From assembly GCF_026104355.1 (NCBI RefSeq), contig NZ_CP110535.1, positions 4,588,001 to 4,652,000 on the forward strand: DNA of 64,000 nucleotides. The letters run 5' to 3'. The position numbers and the translations under genes were made by a program. Below, in pieces: positions 16,843 through 25,677 of this stretch. The notes below the pieces were generated by a model. That model searched no databases, was not told the origin of the DNA, and worked only from the letters and a program-made list of their open reading frames with translations. Position 1 is the first letter of the stretch. The number at the start of each line of letters is the position of its first letter. This stretch comes from Halomonas sp. BDJS001 (GTDB taxonomy: Bacteria; Pseudomonadota; Gammaproteobacteria; Pseudomonadales; Halomonadaceae).

Positions 16843-19077
16843 ATGGCGGACAACACGGGCCTGCAGTTTACCCTGACCCTACCCGGGGCCGATGATACCG
16901 CCGTGGTTCGCTTTACCCACCGCGAAGCGCTGTCGGAGCCGTTTACCCTTGCCGTTGACTTTGCCAGCCGTACCCATGATTTGTCGCCTGCCGACTGTTT
17001 GGATCAGGAGGCAACCCTCACCATTTGGCAGGACGGCGAACCGCTACGCCGTGTCCACGGCATTATAAGTGAACTGCATCGCGGCGATCGCGGTCACCGG
17101 CGCAGCTTTTACCGGGTGGAGATTCGCCCCGCTCTGTGGCGGCTATCGCTGCGCCAAAACTCGCGTATCTTTCAAGACACCTCGCCCTATGATGCGATCA
17201 CAACCTTAACCAGCGAGCGCGGTCTCACCGATGTTGAGTTTGCCACCACCCGTACGCCCCTCGACCGAGAGTTTCTGGTGCAGTATCGGGAGACCGATCT
17301 GGCCTTTATCGAGCGTGTGGCCGCCGAAGAGGGCAGCTTCTATTTCCATGAGTTTGAGAATGTTGAGGGCGGTAAACACCATTTGGTCTTTGCCGATGCC
17401 ACGGTGGTACTGCCCAATATCGGCGAACGCACCTACCATAGCCGCGCCGGGGGCACGCCGCCCCGACGTCACTTGCGCAAGCTACGCCAGGTCAGCCGGG
17501 TACGGCCCGCTTCGGCCACACTCAAGGATTATAGCTTCAAGAACCCGCCTTACGCCCAGCTACACGAACACCAGGCGCCCAATCTAGGGGAGCACGCTCA
17601 GCGAGAGGATTACGAACACTACGACTACCCAGGGCGCTATAAGAAAGACGCCTCCGGCAAGCCGTTCACCCGCCACCGTCTAGAATCGCTGCGCGCTGAC
17701 GCCACCACCGCCGAAGCGGAAAGCGACCTGCCGGAGCTCGCTCCTGGGATCTGCTTTACCCTGACGGATCATGATATCGACAGCCTCAACCGCGCTTGGC
17801 AGGTGGTCTCGGTGGTGCACCACGGCGAGCAGCCCCAGGCCCTGGAAGAGGACGGCATGGCGCGGGGTGGCTATGACAGTAACAATAGGGGGAGCAGCGC
17901 TGCGCAAGCAGGCGAGCTGATGACCCGCTACCACAATGAAGTGGTGATCATGCCCCGGGATCAGACCTTCCGCCCGGTGCCCAACCCCAAACCCCGGGTC
18001 GATGGCCCCCAGGTGGCCTTTGTGGTCGGGCCAGCGGGCGAAGAAATTTACTGCGATAAATATGGCCGGGTCAAAGTGCAGTTCCCCTGGGATCGCTACT
18101 CCGCCGCTAACGAAACCGCCAGTTGCTGGGTGCGCGTCGCCCAGGGCTGGGCGGGCGGTGGTTACGGTAGTATGGCGATCCCCAGGATCGGGCATGAGGT
18201 CATTTTGTCGTTCTTAGAGGGAGACCCGGACCAGCCGCTGATCACCGGGCGCACCTACCACGCGGTTAACCGGCCGCCTTACCCACTGCCTGCCTACAAA
18301 ACCCGCACGGTCATCCGCACCCAAAGCCACAAGGCGGACGGCTTTAACGAACTGCGCTTTGAAGATGAAGCGGGCGAAGAGCAAATCTGGGTGCACGCCC
18401 AAAAAGACCTCGACCTGCTGACCCTTAACGACCGCACCGAGGACATCAAGCGCGACAGCACCCTGCATGTCTTTCGTGATCGCACCACCGACATCGACCG
18501 CGACGAAACCCGCACCGTTCATCGCCATGAAGTCCACACCGTGCATGGCAACGAGACCCATACCGTGGACGGTAACGAAACCTTTACCGTGCACAAGAAC
18601 CGCCGCAAAACGGTGGATGGCAACGAAACCGACCGCATCGGCAAAAACTGGTCGAGCAAAGTCGGCAAGAACAAAACCGAAACCGTTGGCAAGGCGTACC
18701 TGCAGAACGTTGGCATGGGCCGCATGGAAAACGTCGGCCTGGGCTACAGCCTCAACGTTGGGGCGATCATGAACACCCTGGTCGGGCTCAGCAAGAGCAC
18801 TCAGGTGGGGCTCAACCACTCGCTCAATGTTGGACGCAATATCACCCTCAAGGCCGGCAACCAGCTCACCCTGCAGGTAGGCAACAGCCGGCTGGTGCTC
18901 ACTGAGGACGCCATCTACCTGGATGCCGGCGAGATCCACGTCAAGGCGGGCACCAAGGTACACGTCGACGGCCCCGATGACGTCCTGCTCAACACCGGCA
19001 CGGCCCAGCCCGCACCGGGAAGTGCCGAGGAAAGCGATGGCCCTGAACCAAGCGACGCTAAGTCGCCGGGGTGGTAG
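16843..19077 (+). CDS. vgrG: Type VI secretion system tip protein VgrG (TssI)
   Basis: The trimeric spike at the tip of the T6SS tube; effectors are loaded on it. The 744-residue protein shows the N-terminal gp27-like base (VDFASRTHDLSPADCLDQEA, FLVQYRETDLAFIERVAAEE), the gp5 OB-fold (YGRVKVQFPWDRYSAANETA, SCWVRVAQGWAGGGYGSMAI, GHEVILSFLEGDPDQPLITG), and the beta-helical needle with repeated NET/HTV segments (about 560-660). It ends in a Pro/Ser-rich tail without an extra effector domain. It is directly followed (3 bases) by the DUF2169 gene and toxin module that it presumably carries. No sheath or baseplate genes are in the window. Confidence 0.95.
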   Translation: MADNTGLQFTLTLPGADDTAVVRFTHREALSEPFTLAVDFASRTHDLSPADCLDQEATLTIWQDGEPLRRVHGIISELHRGDRGHRRSFYRVEIRPALWRLSLRQNSRIFQDTSPYDAITTLTSERGLTDVEFATTRTPLDREFLVQYRETDLAFIERVAAEEGSFYFHEFENVEGGKHHLVFADATVVLPNIGERTYHSRAGGTPPRRHLRKLRQVSRVRPASATLKDYSFKNPPYAQLHEHQAPNLGEHAQREDYEHYDYPGRYKKDASGKPFTRHRLESLRADATTAEAESDLPELAPGICFTLTDHDIDSLNRAWQVVSVVHHGEQPQALEEDGMARGGYDSNNRGSSAAQAGELMTRYHNEVVIMPRDQTFRPVPNPKPRVDGPQVAFVVGPAGEEIYCDKYGRVKVQFPWDRYSAANETASCWVRVAQGWAGGGYGSMAIPRIGHEVILSFLEGDPDQPLITGRTYHAVNRPPYPLPAYKTRTVIRTQSHKADGFNELRFEDEAGEEQIWVHAQKDLDLLTLNDRTEDIKRDSTLHVFRDRTTDIDRDETRTVHRHEVHTVHGNETHTVDGNETFTVHKNRRKTVDGNETDRIGKNWSSKVGKNKTETVGKAYLQNVGMGRMENVGLGYSLNVGAIMNTLVGLSKSTQVGLNHSLNVGRNITLKAGNQLTLQVGNSRLVLTEDAIYLDAGEIHVKAGTKVHVDGPDDVLLNTGTAQPAPGSAEESDGPEPSDAKSPGW

Positions 19078-19080
19078 TCC

Positions 19081-20235
19081 ATGGCGCAAGTGATTAATCC
19101 AACGTCGTTCCCCCATGCGCTGTATCGCAAGCTCGGCCCGGGCGACCAAGAGTATGACGTGGTGGTGGTACGCGCCACTTACCGCTTCACCGAAGACAAC
19201 TGGCCGCTGTTTGAAGCCAGCCACCAGCAGCCGATTCGCTGGCATCCCACGCTAGAGGGTGACAGCGACAACCTGTATGCCCAGGTCATCACCGATGACC
19301 GCGACGTGCTGCTCGGCAAACTCAGCACCGAAGTGCACGTGCATGGCACGCTGCGCTCGCCCACCGGGCGACCGCGCAGCACCTGGCAGGTGCGGGTGCA
19401 GGTAGGCCCAGTGGACAAACGCCTGATCGTACGCGGTCCGCGGGAGTTCCGCTGGCAACTCCTCGGCGGCTGGCGGGTCACTGACCCCACACCGGTGAAC
19501 GAGGTGCCGCTGGACTACCGCTATGCCTTCGGCGGCCACTATAGCCTGCCCGACGAGGACGCCCTCACCAACACGCTCTACTACCCCGATAACCCCGCCG
19601 GACGCGGCTGGTTGCCGTCCCGCGCGGACTACAAGCGGGTATCCAGCGAGGTTGCCCGGTACCTCAAGCCCGACCTGAACGCCGTCACCCGGCTACCCGC
19701 GCCCCAACTGGAAGATCCGGACTGGCTGGTCACCTCACCCTTTGACCGTCCGGCCCCGGCAGGCTTTGGGCCCATCGCCCCCTGGTGGGAGCCCCGGGTC
19801 AGTTACCAAGGCACTTTTGATGACCACTGGAGAACCCAGCGGCTGCCCTATTGGCCCGAAGACTTCGACTACCGCTTTCACCACAGCGCCCCGGCGGATC
19901 TGGTCGCGCCTGACTACCTGCGCGGGGACGAACTGATGATCCTCACCAACTGCCTAGCCAATAGCCGCGCGATCACGGTGGGAGATCGCCAACGCTTTCG
20001 CCACCGCACCCGGCTACCCGGCATCGCCCTGCAAGCCCTCACCGAACACGCCAGTGGCCAGCGCGGCAATACACCGCTAGCCCTCGACAGCGTGGTGATC
20101 GACCTGGATCGGGAAGACGTTAGCCTCACCTGGCGGGCACTGTTTCCGCTCGATGACCCGCTCAAGCAGGTACGCATCCGGCGCACACCGCTGACAGCGA
20201 CCTCATCCACCGGAGGAGCGCGCCATGTCGGATAA
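19081..20235 (+). CDS. DUF2169 family T6SS effector adaptor
   Basis: A 384-residue protein of the DUF2169 family, which acts as a chaperone/adaptor loading PAAR-like effectors on VgrG. Visible features are INPTSFPHALYRKLGPGDQE, VVVRATYRFTEDNWPLFEAS, VPLDYRYAFGGHY (a family signature), FGPIAPWWEPRVSYQGTFDD, and YLRGDELMILTNC. It begins 3 bases after vgrG and overlaps the toxin gene by 11 bases. From base 19352 on, it is nearly repeated at 22419-23300. Confidence 0.9.
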   Translation: MAQVINPTSFPHALYRKLGPGDQEYDVVVVRATYRFTEDNWPLFEASHQQPIRWHPTLEGDSDNLYAQVITDDRDVLLGKLSTEVHVHGTLRSPTGRPRSTWQVRVQVGPVDKRLIVRGPREFRWQLLGGWRVTDPTPVNEVPLDYRYAFGGHYSLPDEDALTNTLYYPDNPAGRGWLPSRADYKRVSSEVARYLKPDLNAVTRLPAPQLEDPDWLVTSPFDRPAPAGFGPIAPWWEPRVSYQGTFDDHWRTQRLPYWPEDFDYRFHHSAPADLVAPDYLRGDELMILTNCLANSRAITVGDRQRFRHRTRLPGIALQALTEHASGQRGNTPLALDSVVIDLDREDVSLTWRALFPLDDPLKQVRIRRTPLTATSSTGGARHVG

Positions 20236-21796
20236 CGCGCACGAGCTAGCCCCCATGTGTGTGACACCTGACGGACTGTGCGAAGAGGGCGACGGCCCAC
20301 CCGGTGCTGACAGCAGCACACCGCGCGATACCCAGGGAGAGTCACCTCAAGGCGAAACCCTTAGCGGCCAAGCCCGTCACGCCGGTAATGCGGAGGCCCG
20401 ATGGAGAGCGTTGACCAGCCACCCTGATTTTTGTCAGGTGGGCGACAAGATTGTGGGTTTCGATTCCTGTGCAACGTTGGGCAACCCCGTCAACTACTCG
20501 CCCAACGTGATCACCGCCGGGCAACGCACCTACCGGGTCGGCGATTTATGCCAAGGCACCGAGGGCAACGCCGGATCGGGGGTGGGCTCCGGCACCTCCC
20601 AGGGCAGCGGCCACGTGCTGTTCATGACTGGGCACGACAACGTCAAAGCCAACGGCCAGCCGGTCGTGCGTGACGGCAGCGAAAGCATGATCAACTGCAA
20701 CGCCGCCGGGGTAGGCGGCGCCAAGGGCTATGTCCACACCAACACCGAAAGCGTCAACAGCCAGCCCGAAGAGAGCAGCGAGCCGCTCAGCGAAGCCGAG
20801 CGGTTTCAGCAACAGGGCGAAGCCAACCTAGAACGCGTGGGTGAGCTACGCGACGCTCTGAATGACAACCCGAACGGCAAAACCGCTGCTGAGGCAGAAG
20901 CCCTCTATGCGGAGGTGCAGCAATTAGTCGGCGAAACCCGCGCTCAACAAGACGCCCTGATGGATGCGCTAAGGGAAGGGCGCATCAGCGGTAACGACTA
21001 TATCGAGAGTAGTTTTGAGGTCGATGAGGCTGCTAATCGTGCAGCAGATATGCAGCAAGAAGCCGAGCGCCAAGTGCGCTATAGCTCCTCATCCGGCCAG
21101 TCGGCCCGCGCAGCGGGCGAGTTTGCCGCCGAAGTTGCCACCCCGTATGGCACCTATTTGGATATCAAAGATACGGTACAGTTATGGGGAGAGGGCCGCT
21201 ATCTCGCTGCATCTGGGATGACTCTGCTAACGGCAGTATCGGTTATTCCGGGGGTAAGGCTTCTACGTAAGGCGGATGACGTCGCGGACGTTGTACGGAG
21301 CACTGATAGAGCAGGGGATGCGGCGGGTAGTGCCAATAGGGGCGGGACGTCAAGTAGCAACGAAGGGCTGCGGGTAGAGCAAAATTCCACTAATATGGAA
21401 GGTGGTGGTCATAATCAGTTGCTGCCAGGAGAAGGGGATGTCGCTCCTTATAGAGTGCTTCAAGCTGCCGGTACTAAGGGGGATAATATTACTCCTCACC
21501 ACATCCCTTCTGCTAGCCATATGGCAAATCATGGTGTCAATAGAAAGGATGGGATTTCTATTAACATGGAGCAACCTACACCTGGAGTGGGAGGTAGGCA
21601 TAGGCGAACTTTTACATACGGCACGAGAGCAGATAGTGGCATGATGCCTCGAGATGCTTTGGCTGCAGGAGTCAGAGATGCACGCCGCATTTACCAGCAG
21701 GATGGTTTATATGACAGCTATATAAGGCGGCAGCTACAAGAGCTTGTTCGGCAGAACAAGACCACACATCCAATTATTTTTAGGAGGGGTAGATAA
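20225..21796 (+). CDS. T6SS effector: PAAR-like DUF4150 carrier with C-terminal HHIPS putative nuclease
   Basis: The 523-residue protein has a DUF4150 PAAR-like domain at about 75-180 (NPVNYSPNVITAGQRTYRVG, LFMTGHDNVKANGQPVVRDG, INCNAAGVGGAKG), helical/coiled-coil sequence at 185-290, a hydrophobic pre-toxin region (ASGMTLLTAVSVIPGVRLL), the linker NEGLRVEQNSTN (379-390) and a toxin domain of about 133 residues. The latter holds GDNITPHHIPSASHMANHG, reminiscent of HNH/ENDO VII-like polymorphic nucleases in which paired histidines bind metal; this is inference. Residues up to about 220 are almost identical to the second toxin. The tail is visibly richer in AT than the carrier. An immunity gene follows at once. 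Confidence 0.88.
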   Translation: MSDNAHELAPMCVTPDGLCEEGDGPPGADSSTPRDTQGESPQGETLSGQARHAGNAEARWRALTSHPDFCQVGDKIVGFDSCATLGNPVNYSPNVITAGQRTYRVGDLCQGTEGNAGSGVGSGTSQGSGHVLFMTGHDNVKANGQPVVRDGSESMINCNAAGVGGAKGYVHTNTESVNSQPEESSEPLSEAERFQQQGEANLERVGELRDALNDNPNGKTAAEAEALYAEVQQLVGETRAQQDALMDALREGRISGNDYIESSFEVDEAANRAADMQQEAERQVRYSSSSGQSARAAGEFAAEVATPYGTYLDIKDTVQLWGEGRYLAASGMTLLTAVSVIPGVRLLRKADDVADVVRSTDRAGDAAGSANRGGTSSSNEGLRVEQNSTNMEGGGHNQLLPGEGDVAPYRVLQAAGTKGDNITPHHIPSASHMANHGVNRKDGISINMEQPTPGVGGRHRRTFTYGTRADSGMMPRDALAAGVRDARRIYQQDGLYDSYIRRQLQELVRQNKTTHPIIFRRGR

Positions 21797-22252
21797 ATGT
21801 CAGAAGAAGCGCTTCAGGAGGCACTCAAAGAGCTCGAAAGAAAAATTGATGGTGGTGAGGTTCAAGAAATTGATAGGGTTATTTCAAAAATAACCTTATT
21901 CGGTAGCGCTTCGAGTATTAAGCCGTTGCTCTGTTTACTTCGCGATGACGCTTTATATGATGAGGGGATGTATTCACTTATTCATGCTGCAGAGTCGTTT
22001 GATGATCGAACCTATACTTGTGAACTTCTCGATGCTTTACCAACTATGTGCCATACCTCTCCCGCTTGGGCATCTATCGTAATTATGAGAGTTCTTAATA
22101 GCGATTCTGCGCGGGGGCAGTTGACGTTACAAGCACGGAATGCCAATCAGGATGCGAAGAAGTCTTTGGCTTGGTTGTTGGAACAGATTAATAATGAGAG
22201 CCCGGCGTTTCTCTCAAAGACAGTCGCACCTCTTATTGCCGCAAAAGGATAG
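21797..22252 (+). CDS. Immunity protein to the first toxin (Imm30-like)
   Basis: A 151-residue, mainly helical acidic protein beginning in the base after the toxin stop codon, with AGGAGGGG as ribosome site inside the toxin gene end. Segments IKPLLCLLRDDALYDEGMYS, LIHAAESFDDRTYTCELLDA and TSPAWASIVIMRVLNSDSAR resemble the Imm30 family of polymorphic toxin immunity proteins. No signal peptide, so it acts in the cytoplasm, which fits a nuclease toxin. The Imm30 label is from pattern recall; position makes the immunity role likely. Confidence 0.75.
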   Translation: MSEEALQEALKELERKIDGGEVQEIDRVISKITLFGSASSIKPLLCLLRDDALYDEGMYSLIHAAESFDDRTYTCELLDALPTMCHTSPAWASIVIMRVLNSDSARGQLTLQARNANQDAKKSLAWLLEQINNESPAFLSKTVAPLIAAKG

Positions 22253-22418
22253 ATAAAATAATAATTAATTCAATATTAGATACAATCAATTTTAATGTTA
22301 ATGCGATTTCGTCGCTAGAGTGTTTCTTGCGATAAGTGTCTATGCAAAAGTAGATCAGATATGAAGTGCAGGTAATTGATTTGCATGTGTTTTAGCTTAT
22401 ATATGGAAACTTAGTTAA
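22253..22418. other. AT-rich junction between the two toxin cassettes
   Basis: 166 bases of AT-rich sequence without a gene, separating the first immunity gene from the abrupt start of the duplicated DUF2169 sequence at 22419. No terminator with a T-run was seen. Confidence 0.45.
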
Positions 22419-23300
22419 TGCGCTCGCCCACCGGGCAACCGCGCAGCACCTGGCAGGTACGGTTACAGGTAGGCCCGGTAGACAAACGCCTGATCGTGCG
22501 CGGCCCCGGGAGTTTCGTTGGCAACTGCTCGGTGGCTGGCGGGTCACTGACCCCACACCGGTGAGCGAAGTGCCGCTGGACTACCGCTATGCCTTCGGTG
22601 GGCACTACCGCCTGCCCGAGGGGGACGCCCTCGCTAACACACTCTACTACCCCGACAACCCCGCCGGGCGCGGCTGGTTGCCGTCCGCGCGGACTACAAG
22701 CGGGTATCCAGCGAGGTCGCTAGGTACCTAAAACCCGACCTCAACGCCGTCACGCGGCTACCCGCACCTCAACTGGAAGACCCGGACTGGCTGGTCACCT
22801 CACCCTTTGAGCGTCCGGCTCCGGCAGGCTTTGGCCCCATTGCCCCCTGGTGGGAGCCCCGGGTCAGCTATCAAGGCACCTTCGACGAGCACTGGAGAAC
22901 CCAGCGCTTACCCTACTGGCCAGAAGACTTCGACTACCGCTTTCACCACAGCGCCCCGGCGGATCTGGTCGCCCCCGATTACCTGCGCGGGGACGAACTG
23001 ATGATCCTCACCAACTGCCTGCCCAATAGCCGGGCGATTACGGTGGGGGATCGTCAACGTTTTCGCCACCGCACCCGGTTACCCGGCATCGCCCTGCACG
23101 CCCTCACCGACCACGCCAGCGGCCAGCGCGGCAATACCCCGCTGGCCCTCGACAGCGTGGTGATCGACCTGGATCGGGAAGACGTCAGCCTCACCTGGCG
23201 GGCGCTGTTCCCGCTCGATGACCCGCTCAAGAAGGTACGCATTCGGCGCACACGGCTGGCGGCGACCTCATCCACCGGAGGGGTACGCAATGTCGGATAG
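22419..23300 (+). pseudogene. Truncated, frameshifted second copy of the DUF2169 adaptor
   Basis: From TGCGCTCGCCC at 22419 the sequence follows copy one from 19352 onward at roughly 90% identity by eye, but the first 90 residues of the protein are missing. Two single-base losses break it: one near 22503 (CCCCGGGAGT against CCGCGGGAGT) and one near 22683 (CCGTCCGCG against CCGTCCCGCG). The last frame runs intact to the TAG at 23298-23300, including YLRGDELMILTNC. It cannot make adaptor; the second toxin presumably depends on the intact copy. Confidence 0.88.
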
Positions 23301-24747
23301 TAGCCTAACCATCTGCATCGGCGATCAAAGCCCCTGCGAAGGCGATGATAAGGCCACCAACGCAGGCACGCCCGAAGACACTTCCGCGGCAGCCCCTCAA
23401 GGCGAACCCCTTAGCGGCCAGGCTCGCCACGCCGGTAATGCGGAGGCCCGCTGGAGAGCGTTGACCAGCCACCCTGATTTTTGTCAGGTGGGCGACAAGA
23501 TTGTGGGCTTCGATTCCTGTGCAACGTTGGGCAACCCCGTGAACTACTCACCCAACGTGATCACCGCCGGGCAACGCACCTACCGGGTCGGTGACCTGTG
23601 CCAAGGCACCGAGGGCAACGCCGGGTCGGGAGTGGGCTCCGGCACCTCCCAGGGCAGTGGCCACGTGCTGTTCATGACCGGGCACGACAACGTTAAAGCC
23701 AACGGGCAACCGGTCGTCCGCGACGGCAGCGAAAGCATGATCAACTGCAACGCCGCCGGGGTAGGCGGCGCCAAGGGCTATGTCCACACCAATACCGAAA
23801 GCGTCAACAGCCAGCCCGAAGAGACCAGCGAACCGCTCAGCGTCGCCGAGCAATTACAGCAAGAGGCACAAGCCAACCTGGAACGCGTAGGCGAACTACG
23901 CGAGGCCCTGAACGACAACCCCACCGGCAAAACCTCGGAACAAGCCCTGGCATTGCGGGCACAGGTAGAGGAGCTTGCCCAGACGGTGGAGCACCAGCAG
24001 CAAGCGATGATGGAGGCCAGGCGCAACGGCACCCTCTCCGACGATGAGCTGCATGATTTGATGGACTACACCAATGAAACCACCGTCAGTGTCCTAGATT
24101 TGCAAGATAACGCTGGACGACAGACCGCGCGTGCCAATGCAAAAGGGACATGGGTTGATTTTCTTATTGGTTTCAACCCGGTTATAGCGGGAGCACAGTT
24201 GCTTGAGGGAGTGGGAGATGGTGTCAGGTCAGGCCAATACGGCCAGGCCATGTTGCCTGTGTTACTTGACAGCACCCCCATTGGGCGCTCGCTCGGCTCC
24301 ATGGTTAAAAAGGTGTTTGGCGGTTTCAAAAAGCCCAAGAGGGTTGACAGAGATTCGTCTAGTAGTTCGGCTAACCCGCGAGAATCTGGTCAGGACAACG
24401 AAGGGCTCCGGGTGGAGGAAAATTCCGGTAATGTTAGGAGGAGGCTACCCGTTCCTGAGAACTTGCCGGAAAATATTCATCCTGGTCAACAGGGTAAGCA
24501 TATACCGGGACACAACAACTTTACTCCTGGGCGTTCGCCACTAGCTGAGGGTATAAACCCGCAACAACTGCTTGATGGTGTACACGATGGCACTCACTCT
24601 ATTGTTAGAATGACTCCTAGGGGGCAGCCTGTAGTTGACTTCGGTAAAACCATTGGTCAATTTGAAGGCAATGGCACTCAATTTGGAATAATACATCACG
24701 GCAAGAATGGAGCGCATATCGTTCCCGCAAACCCGATACAATTTTGA
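23290..24747 (+). CDS. T6SS effector: PAAR-like DUF4150 carrier with C-terminal Ntox50-like toxin
   Basis: The 485-residue protein starts at ATG 23290, which matches ATG 20225 of the first copy; the longer open frame upstream lies in the DUF2169 relic. Residues to about 215 are almost identical to the first toxin (DUF4150/PAAR-like). The middle is helical with FLIGFNPVIAGAQLLEGVGD; the linker NEGLRVEENSGN (370-381) is shared. The tail reads QQGKHIPGHNNFTPGRSPLA, then INPQQLLDGVHDGTHS and TQFGIIHHGKNGAHIVPANP. The KHIPGHNNF-PGRS pattern matches the polymorphic toxin type 50 family, a predicted RNase-like domain. An immunity gene follows 8 bases later. Confidence 0.87.
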   Translation: MSDSSLTICIGDQSPCEGDDKATNAGTPEDTSAAAPQGEPLSGQARHAGNAEARWRALTSHPDFCQVGDKIVGFDSCATLGNPVNYSPNVITAGQRTYRVGDLCQGTEGNAGSGVGSGTSQGSGHVLFMTGHDNVKANGQPVVRDGSESMINCNAAGVGGAKGYVHTNTESVNSQPEETSEPLSVAEQLQQEAQANLERVGELREALNDNPTGKTSEQALALRAQVEELAQTVEHQQQAMMEARRNGTLSDDELHDLMDYTNETTVSVLDLQDNAGRQTARANAKGTWVDFLIGFNPVIAGAQLLEGVGDGVRSGQYGQAMLPVLLDSTPIGRSLGSMVKKVFGGFKKPKRVDRDSSSSSANPRESGQDNEGLRVEENSGNVRRRLPVPENLPENIHPGQQGKHIPGHNNFTPGRSPLAEGINPQQLLDGVHDGTHSIVRMTPRGQPVVDFGKTIGQFEGNGTQFGIIHHGKNGAHIVPANPIQF

Positions 24748-24755
24748 GGTTATTT

Positions 24756-25061
24756 ATGAATTTACCAGGATGGTTGGTTTTATGGGTCTGGCAAGCTTTA
24801 ATCGGAGAAATCTACCCTGAGATCCGAGCGATTGCTTTACGTTACGATGCAAATAAAAATTTACTTATTCGATATTATTTTGACCGTGAGCCAACAGAGG
24901 ATGATGTGGAATCTATAGAGTGTGTTATCACAAATATTCTGGCTCATACTTCATCAAATGAGCAGATTAGAAATATTGAAGAAGAGGCCATATTTTCAGA
25001 ACAGAAAATAGCTGATTTGGATTTGTTGGATGGCTTGGTATATGCGAGGAGAGAATACTGA
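24756..25061 (+). CDS. Probable immunity protein to the second (Ntox50-like) toxin
   Basis: A 101-residue acidic protein, beginning LPGWLVLWVWQALIGEIYPE and continuing RAIALRYDANKNLLIRYYFD and EPTEDDVESIECVITNIL. GAGG lies 7 bases before ATG 24756, overlapping the toxin end. The family is not recognised with confidence; it shows no resemblance to the first immunity protein. The RYYFDREPTEDD pattern is seen in small immunity-like proteins beside CDI and Rhs toxins. It is AT-rich like the toxin tail. Confidence 0.7.
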   Translation: MNLPGWLVLWVWQALIGEIYPEIRAIALRYDANKNLLIRYYFDREPTEDDVESIECVITNILAHTSSNEQIRNIEEEAIFSEQKIADLDLLDGLVYARREY

Positions 25062-25147
25062 AAGTGTTTAATATTTTGATCAGCAATGTACCTTTGCATA
25101 AATTTTCGTACGCTCAAGGTCGACGGCCTCAAGCGCCAACTGCAACA

Positions 25148-25270
25148 CTATTGAAGAGTACTCGGGACGACGACGGATTTCTTAAGTATCTCGGCATAGA
25201 CTTCCAACGGCGTTCGCCACTTCAGTGTCTTGCGTGGCCGAATATTGAGGTAATCTCGTCGAGTTATCCC
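25148..25270 (-). pseudogene. IS30-family transposase, C-terminal relic
   Basis: The minus strand reads RRDYLNIRPRKTLKWRTPLE, then VYAEILKKS and a stop at 25148-25150. LNIRPRKTL-W-TPLEVY matches the end of IS30-type DDE transposases. About 40 residues remain with upstream frame damage; no inverted repeat was found. It marks an old insertion at the edge of the toxin island. Confidence 0.75.
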
Positions 25271-25475
25271 TGGCTGTAGACCGACAGATTTGTGCCCCTC
25301 AGTAGGTACTGTCTCAATAGCCCGCTGGTGTTGAGGGGGCGCCCAACCGCTTGGAACCCCGCTGCCATGGGCTATACGAGTCGGCAAACAGAGCCTGGGC
25401 AGTTGCCCTGCGCAACCCGCAAGCCAGTAGAGCTATTAATATGGCGCACTGGGGCGAATAAGCCTCTGCTCACAG

Positions 25476-25677
25476 CAAGGTGATCCGGCCTCCAAAGCAC
25501 TCATCTACAACTACGCCGCCGGAGGCTTGATCGGCAGCCTGCACGGCGACCTCGCTCACCGCTATCGCGTGGCTGCCGAATCGGCTAGCTGCACCATCGA
25601 CTATGGTCACCACGGCTTTCTGGCAAACGTCATCAATACTCTGAAGAAAAGCAGACTAAAACGGCCCCTACAATGAG
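25476..25677 (+). pseudogene. Degenerate C-terminal relic, possibly histidine phosphatase family
   Basis: One frame gives SKALIYNYAAGGLIGSLHGD, then HRYRVAAESASCTIDYGHHG and a stop at TGA 25675-25677. The spacing resembles the C-terminus of histidine phosphatase family proteins, but the likeness is weak, and no start or active site is present. Confidence 0.3.

Follow-up and report, generated by a model that had tools for sequence, protein, structure and literature searches.

The shuffling of T6SS effectors is in itself known biology, which includes recombination within the vgrG loci (PMC8546570) and the arrays produced by effector displacement (PMC5361080). A functional VgrG-PIPY spike requires DUF2169 (PMC11883445), and, on the side of the immunity families, Imm30 has been linked to the Tox-SHH nucleases of the HNH/EndoVII fold (PMC3482391). 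In the locus described here, the new part is the anatomy. The locus is very probably an accessory T6SS spike-and-payload island that was assembled by homologous recombination, a reading that draws on its gene content, on an identical tract with diverged arms, on the recurrence of its toxin-immunity pairings, on the exchange of tails among its relatives, and on its insertion site.

The island and its insertion site

The island occupies positions 16843-25061 of the window (the whole stretch of 64,000 nucleotides that was analyzed, G000:C1:4588001-4652000), in a Halomonas/Vreelandella genome of 4.97 Mb. The order of its genes, all on the + strand, is vgrG, DUF2169 adaptor, effector A, Imm30, a broken copy of DUF2169, effector B, and an immunity gene, and each was found, by open reading frames and profile matches, where an earlier note on this DNA had placed it. 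The features are as follows:

16843-19077, + strand: vgrG, the spike tip protein TssI (TIGR03361, 1.6e-180, 601 bits)
19081-20235, + strand: DUF2169 adaptor/chaperone, intact (PF09937, 9.5e-74, 249 bits)
20225-21796, + strand: effector A, with a PIPY/DUF4150-like head (residues ~44-215), a type-A middle, the hinge NEGLRVE (379), and an HHIPS tail (~395-523), from a sub-threshold PF13665 match and alignment
21797-22252, + strand: Imm30, the predicted immunity gene for tail A (PF15565, 5.4e-14, 52.5 bits against a cut-off of 27)
22419-23300, + strand: DUF2169 remnant, without its first ~90 codons, with two frameshifts, and split over three frames
23290-24747, + strand: effector B, with a PIPY-like head, a type-B middle, the hinge NEGLRVE (370), and a tail of the Ntox50/MafB2 RNase type (PF15542, 1.9e-18)
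24744-25061, + strand: MafI2-like gene of 105 aa, the predicted immunity gene for tail B (match to PDB 8hhj_A)
16990-22437, no strand: identical tract of 5448 bp, with 0 differences from its counterpart beside the main T6SS cluster (G000:C1 ~3846-3852 kb, minus strand)
25125-25388, - strand: degenerate transposase remnant, presumably IS30-like, a name taken from its translated motif (77% match in G032, where the matching stretch adjoins a transposase-like ORF at the corresponding site)
25422-25576, + strand: degenerate Rhs YD-repeat remnant (Rhs ORFs at the corresponding site in G052 match it at 73%)

The vgrG, DUF2169, and DUF4150-type genes adjoin one another, as in synteny type B of PMC11883445. 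Scans for promoters and terminators gave results near the background.

The island lies between pirin and serA, which are neighbors in 26 of 29 relatives (30 serA loci were examined, one of them the window's own). The same site is occupied by a vgrG-Rhs island in one relative (G052) and by metabolic islands in two others (G045 and G032), and the window itself keeps an Rhs fragment and the IS30-like remnant beside serA. The pirin-serA site is an old accessory hot spot.

The carriers

Effectors A and B are alike over roughly residues 44-215 of A, where their DNA is ~92% identical over 540 bp, the first 300 bp of the heads being 94% identical, and the two units as a whole share 1355 of 1541 nt (88%), which rules out chance. 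The earlier note had described the effectors as nearly identical for about 215 residues and as parting there into their toxin tails. The shared head stands, but the divergence does not begin at the tails: it sets in ahead of them, in the middles, at about residue 215 of A, and these middles are unrelated. Directly ahead of both tails, the hinge NEGLRVE recurs, with 32 of 37 nt shared between A and B. Carrier B is a mosaic, which resembles its own neighbor, carrier A, in the head until about 23830, and from there on resembles the carrier at position 2 of Vreelandella titanicae, which its middle matches at 90%.

The heads are labeled here as DUF4150-like, since their PF13665 (DUF4150) scores, of 20.8 and 22.4 bits, fall under the Pfam cut-off of 31. 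The label is backed by the DUF2169 neighbor and, more tentatively, by a motif that resembles the P(I/V)P(Y/F) of the literature, and that reads PVNY in effectors A and B, and PVRY in the position-1 carrier of ALS9 and in G059. The structure predicted for the PIPY-like head from five sequences (pLDDT 38.2) was too poor for a fold search. The hinge was also considered as a general signature of DUF4150, and was rejected because it is absent from the distant DUF4150 proteins compared; a counterpart, PGVHVK, is present in a relative from Burkholderia contaminans, and the motif is left as a local feature.

Toxin tails and immunity genes

Tail B matches Ntox50 (PF15542) with 67.4 bits, against a cut-off of 22.2, and the MafB2 toxin (PDB 8hhj_B) at 2.4e-25, which bears out the Ntox50-like tail that had been proposed for the second effector. 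When the residues of effector B are compared with the histidines shown to be important in MafB2 (PMC9970974), three catalytic histidines are seen to be kept, in KHIPGH at 403, IIHHGKNG at 467, and AHIVP at 475. By this homology, tail B would be an RNase of the MafB2/YxiD type. The 105-aa gene that follows matches chain A of 8hhj, the "MafB2 immunity protein", at 1.5e-8 over 98 aa, and is a homologue of the MafI2 type. Homologues of this 105-aa gene, 52-53% identical to it, are found on Rhizobium plasmids (L051 and L052), where they are annotated as colicin or hypothetical and have no obvious toxin; one of them adjoins genes of the MafI family, and they are likely to represent orphan immunity.

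Tail A shares 46-49% identity with the C-terminal ends of LXG toxins from Bacillus and with a protein of the cyanobacterium Gloeothece, and in the Bacillus LXG and Gloeothece cases alike an Imm30 gene follows the homologue of the tail. Because of the link between Imm30 and the Tox-SHH nucleases (PMC3482391), tail A is called a likely nuclease, of the HNH/EndoVII type, in an HHIPS-Imm30 pair. The tail has no Pfam match, its profile recovered chance matches only from the PDB, and a structure predicted from four sequences (pLDDT 49.8) was too poor for a fold search. It was not found in phage genome records, and, across 369 genomes of the class, tail A and the small immunity gene returned essentially their own copies only. 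Toward the C-terminus of a distant DUF4150 protein (L113), a PHHIPP motif recalls tail A.

The possibility that the two tails are homologues of one another was rejected, the best BLASTP E value between them being 0.086, so the earlier description of a common head with two toxin tails that are unrelated holds. The claim that each tail has its own, different immunity gene is likewise upheld, on the basis that the same pairings recur across phyla; both pairings rest on this independent recurrence elsewhere, from which protection is predicted. Two pairs known from Neisseria, Bacillus, and the cyanobacteria are now linked, in this way, to PIPY-type carriers of the T6SS.

A second copy at the main T6SS cluster

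The genome contains a T6SS cluster (TssK at 3864763), and positions 16855-22638 of the window align at 99.46% to a module beside this main cluster, 0.75 Mb away. DUF2169, effector A, and Imm30 are the same in that module, and so is vgrG except for its start. All 31 differences are at the ends of the alignment, with 15 in 16861-16989, 16 in 22438-22635, and none in 16990-22437. The contrast between 31 differences in ~330 bp of homologous ends and 0 inside the tract is pronounced (Fisher p ~1e-38), and is to be read with the reservation that polishing of a long repeat during assembly may have contributed to the zero. On the right, the boundary of the tract lies no more than 19 nt into the DUF2169 remnant. 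On the left, the vgrG of the window is chimeric: its first ~90 nt most resemble those of a further orphan vgrG in this genome, one that is fused to a long Rhs-like ORF (82/90 nt, where the main copy matches at 69/90), and are followed by main-copy sequence.

Because the identical tract has ends that are homologous but diverged, the pattern fits a recent homologous recombination or gene conversion between the two loci, for which vgrG and DUF2169 supplied the arms. It does not fit a local duplication, and simple transposition of the 5.4-kb module was rejected, given that both ends are homologous and diverged, rather than abrupt. The direction from the main cluster to the orphan island is favored, as carrier A corresponds to the syntenic carrier at position 1 of the main cluster in V. 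titanicae and PA16-9. That same correspondence makes it rather unlikely that the two-toxin island came whole from another halomonad, and that the copy at the main cluster was made later, by conversion from orphan to main; such an arrival would, though, agree with the absence of the island from this site in the relatives and with the close genome G074, in which the site is empty and which has no vgrG at all.

In total, the genome encodes five vgrGs and two intact copies of DUF2169, one in the island and the other at the main cluster. The supposition that the single vgrG and adaptor of the island must serve both effectors is not supported: as the two sets of the module are identical but for the start of vgrG, that of the window is not the sole possible loader of effector B. 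Single knock-outs of the island vgrG or adaptor could, in turn, be masked by the second copy.

Other features were observed at the main cluster. A PAAR-lysozyme effector (PF05488 and PF00959; L017 14294-15175) stands with a small gene directly ahead of the main vgrG, the first codons of which differ from those of the relatives. A DUF2169 remnant at the same cluster is in frame with a DUF2569 membrane protein, forming a fusion ORF (L017 7438-8184) that probably arose by deletion; an unfused DUF2569 gene is found in ALS9 (L020 5349-5948).

Arrays and cassette exchange in the relatives

The carrier is held by 4 of the 82 genus genomes searched, including the window's own, that of Halomonas sp. 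PA16-9 having been found apart from this search, and the comparison of relatives is thus one of small numbers. Arrays of the same layout are present in V. titanicae BH1, Halomonas sp. ALS9, and PA16-9, with main loci that comprise vgrG, DUF2169, a carrier, an immunity gene, fragments of adaptor and vgrG, more carriers, and orphan immunity genes. In PA16-9, DUF2169 and effector A form one ORF of 948 aa (L050 10858-13704), which represents either a frameshift or a sequencing error.

The comparison of related strains for additional tails, which the earlier note had recommended, yielded Endonuclea_NS_2 (a DNA/RNA non-specific endonuclease), GH-E, and LHH on such carriers. Differing payloads are, in other words, found on the same carrier, with the immunity genes carried along. 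At the sequence level, position 2 of ALS9 and V. titanicae is a direct case of cassette exchange, with a head that is 90.7% identical over 642 nt, unrelated middles, and a GH-E tail and ankyrin immunity gene that are 97.3% identical over 892 nt. The idea that tail exchange diversifies these effectors is, in this sense, borne out by the relatives.

Across species, the heads at position 1 form one cluster, which indicates that the two carriers predate the split of the species. This bears on the view of the island as a snapshot of fresh cassette duplication, in which one DUF2169-effector-immunity cassette would have been duplicated locally in tandem, before one of the tails was replaced. Although such a duplication would account for the 88% identity of the tandem units and the 94% identity at the start of the heads, it is quite improbable, given not only this clustering, but also the unrelated middles, the match of the carrier B middle to position 2 of V. 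titanicae, the existence of two-carrier arrays in several species, and the fact that the front module is common to another locus. What happened recently is that the 5.4-kb front module passed from one of two loci to the other.

A proposed mechanism

In the recombination account preferred here, VgrG would form the spike, and the DUF2169 chaperone would help the PIPY (DUF4150-like) head of A or B to seat on its tip. After injection, the C-terminal tail would act in the neighboring cell, that of B as an RNase and that of A as a likely nuclease, and each immunity protein would protect the producer and its sisters. The front module—from the body of vgrG to Imm30—would have been exchanged recently between the main cluster and the hot spot, using the 5' sequence of vgrG and the sequence of DUF2169 as homology arms, and would now stand ahead of the Ntox50 cassette, which is placed behind the broken adaptor copy. 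Effector B would rely on an adaptor made elsewhere than directly ahead of it, and may be poorly expressed or loaded, its own adaptor copy being broken.

It is possible, if on balance doubtful, that effector B is a displaced relic that is no longer delivered and is kept for its immunity gene, as in the orphan immunity of V. cholerae, which would be compatible with the recombination account. The broken DUF2169 ahead of effector B points in this direction, as do the degraded position-2 effectors of V. titanicae and PA16-9, whereas its 485 codons form an uninterrupted ORF that retains the catalytic histidines, and the genome has intact adaptor genes both 3 kb upstream of it and at the main cluster.

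The DUF2169 remnants (window 22419; L017 8183; L019 14901; L050 18463), which follow different immunity genes and come from different species, start within ~9 nt of the same point in the adaptor. Because of this shared starting point, it may be suggested, tentatively and with less than even confidence, that the truncated DUF2169 behind an immunity gene is a built-in homology arm, through which a module composed of vgrG/DUF2169, an effector, an immunity gene, and a 3' portion of DUF2169 could recombine ahead of a resident DUF2169-effector cassette without deleting it, so that the adaptor fragments would turn these loci into self-extending arrays, with modules passing between the main cluster and the orphan islands. 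In this one genome, a payload exchange that involved the main T6SS cluster and an orphan island can be seen with its two arms and its body, and how the T6SS arrays grow without loss of the resident toxin becomes a testable question.

Comparison with known systems

The vgrG-adaptor-DUF4150 loci of Agrobacterium (PMC8546570) are similar in bringing together vgrG, adaptor, effector, and immunity gene, in their clusters of immunity genes, and in the swapping of payloads through recombination that takes place within vgrG and downstream from the adaptor. The present island differs in its two complete tandem carriers, punctuated by adaptor fragments, and in the identical tract that ties an orphan island to the main cluster within one genome. 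In the displacement arrays of Vibrio cholerae (PMC5361080), a new effector-immunity pair likewise stands ahead of an older one, and the old immunity genes are kept downstream, but the old effectors persist there as 3' ends, whereas here the second effector is intact and the units are marked by adaptor fragments.

In the case of the payloads, tail A shares with the Tox-SHH/Imm30 pairings (PMC3482391) the Imm30 partner and an HH motif in the toxin, and differs in its PHH[IMV]P motif and in matching no Pfam family, its membership of Tox-SHH being putative. MafB2-MafI2 of Neisseria (PMC9970974, PDB 8hhj) is homologous to tail B and its immunity gene, with conserved catalytic histidines, and YxiD-YxxD of Bacillus (PMC12700104) is a related known pair; unlike MafB2 and YxiD, tail B rides on a T6SS PIPY-type head, and not on a Maf or LXG carrier. 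Three things are new in comparison with these systems: tandem carriers that are intact and punctuated by fragments of the adaptor, an exchange tract within a single genome whose arms can be seen, and the occurrence in halomonads of HHIPS-Imm30 and MafB2-MafI2 cassettes mounted on a carrier of the PIPY type.
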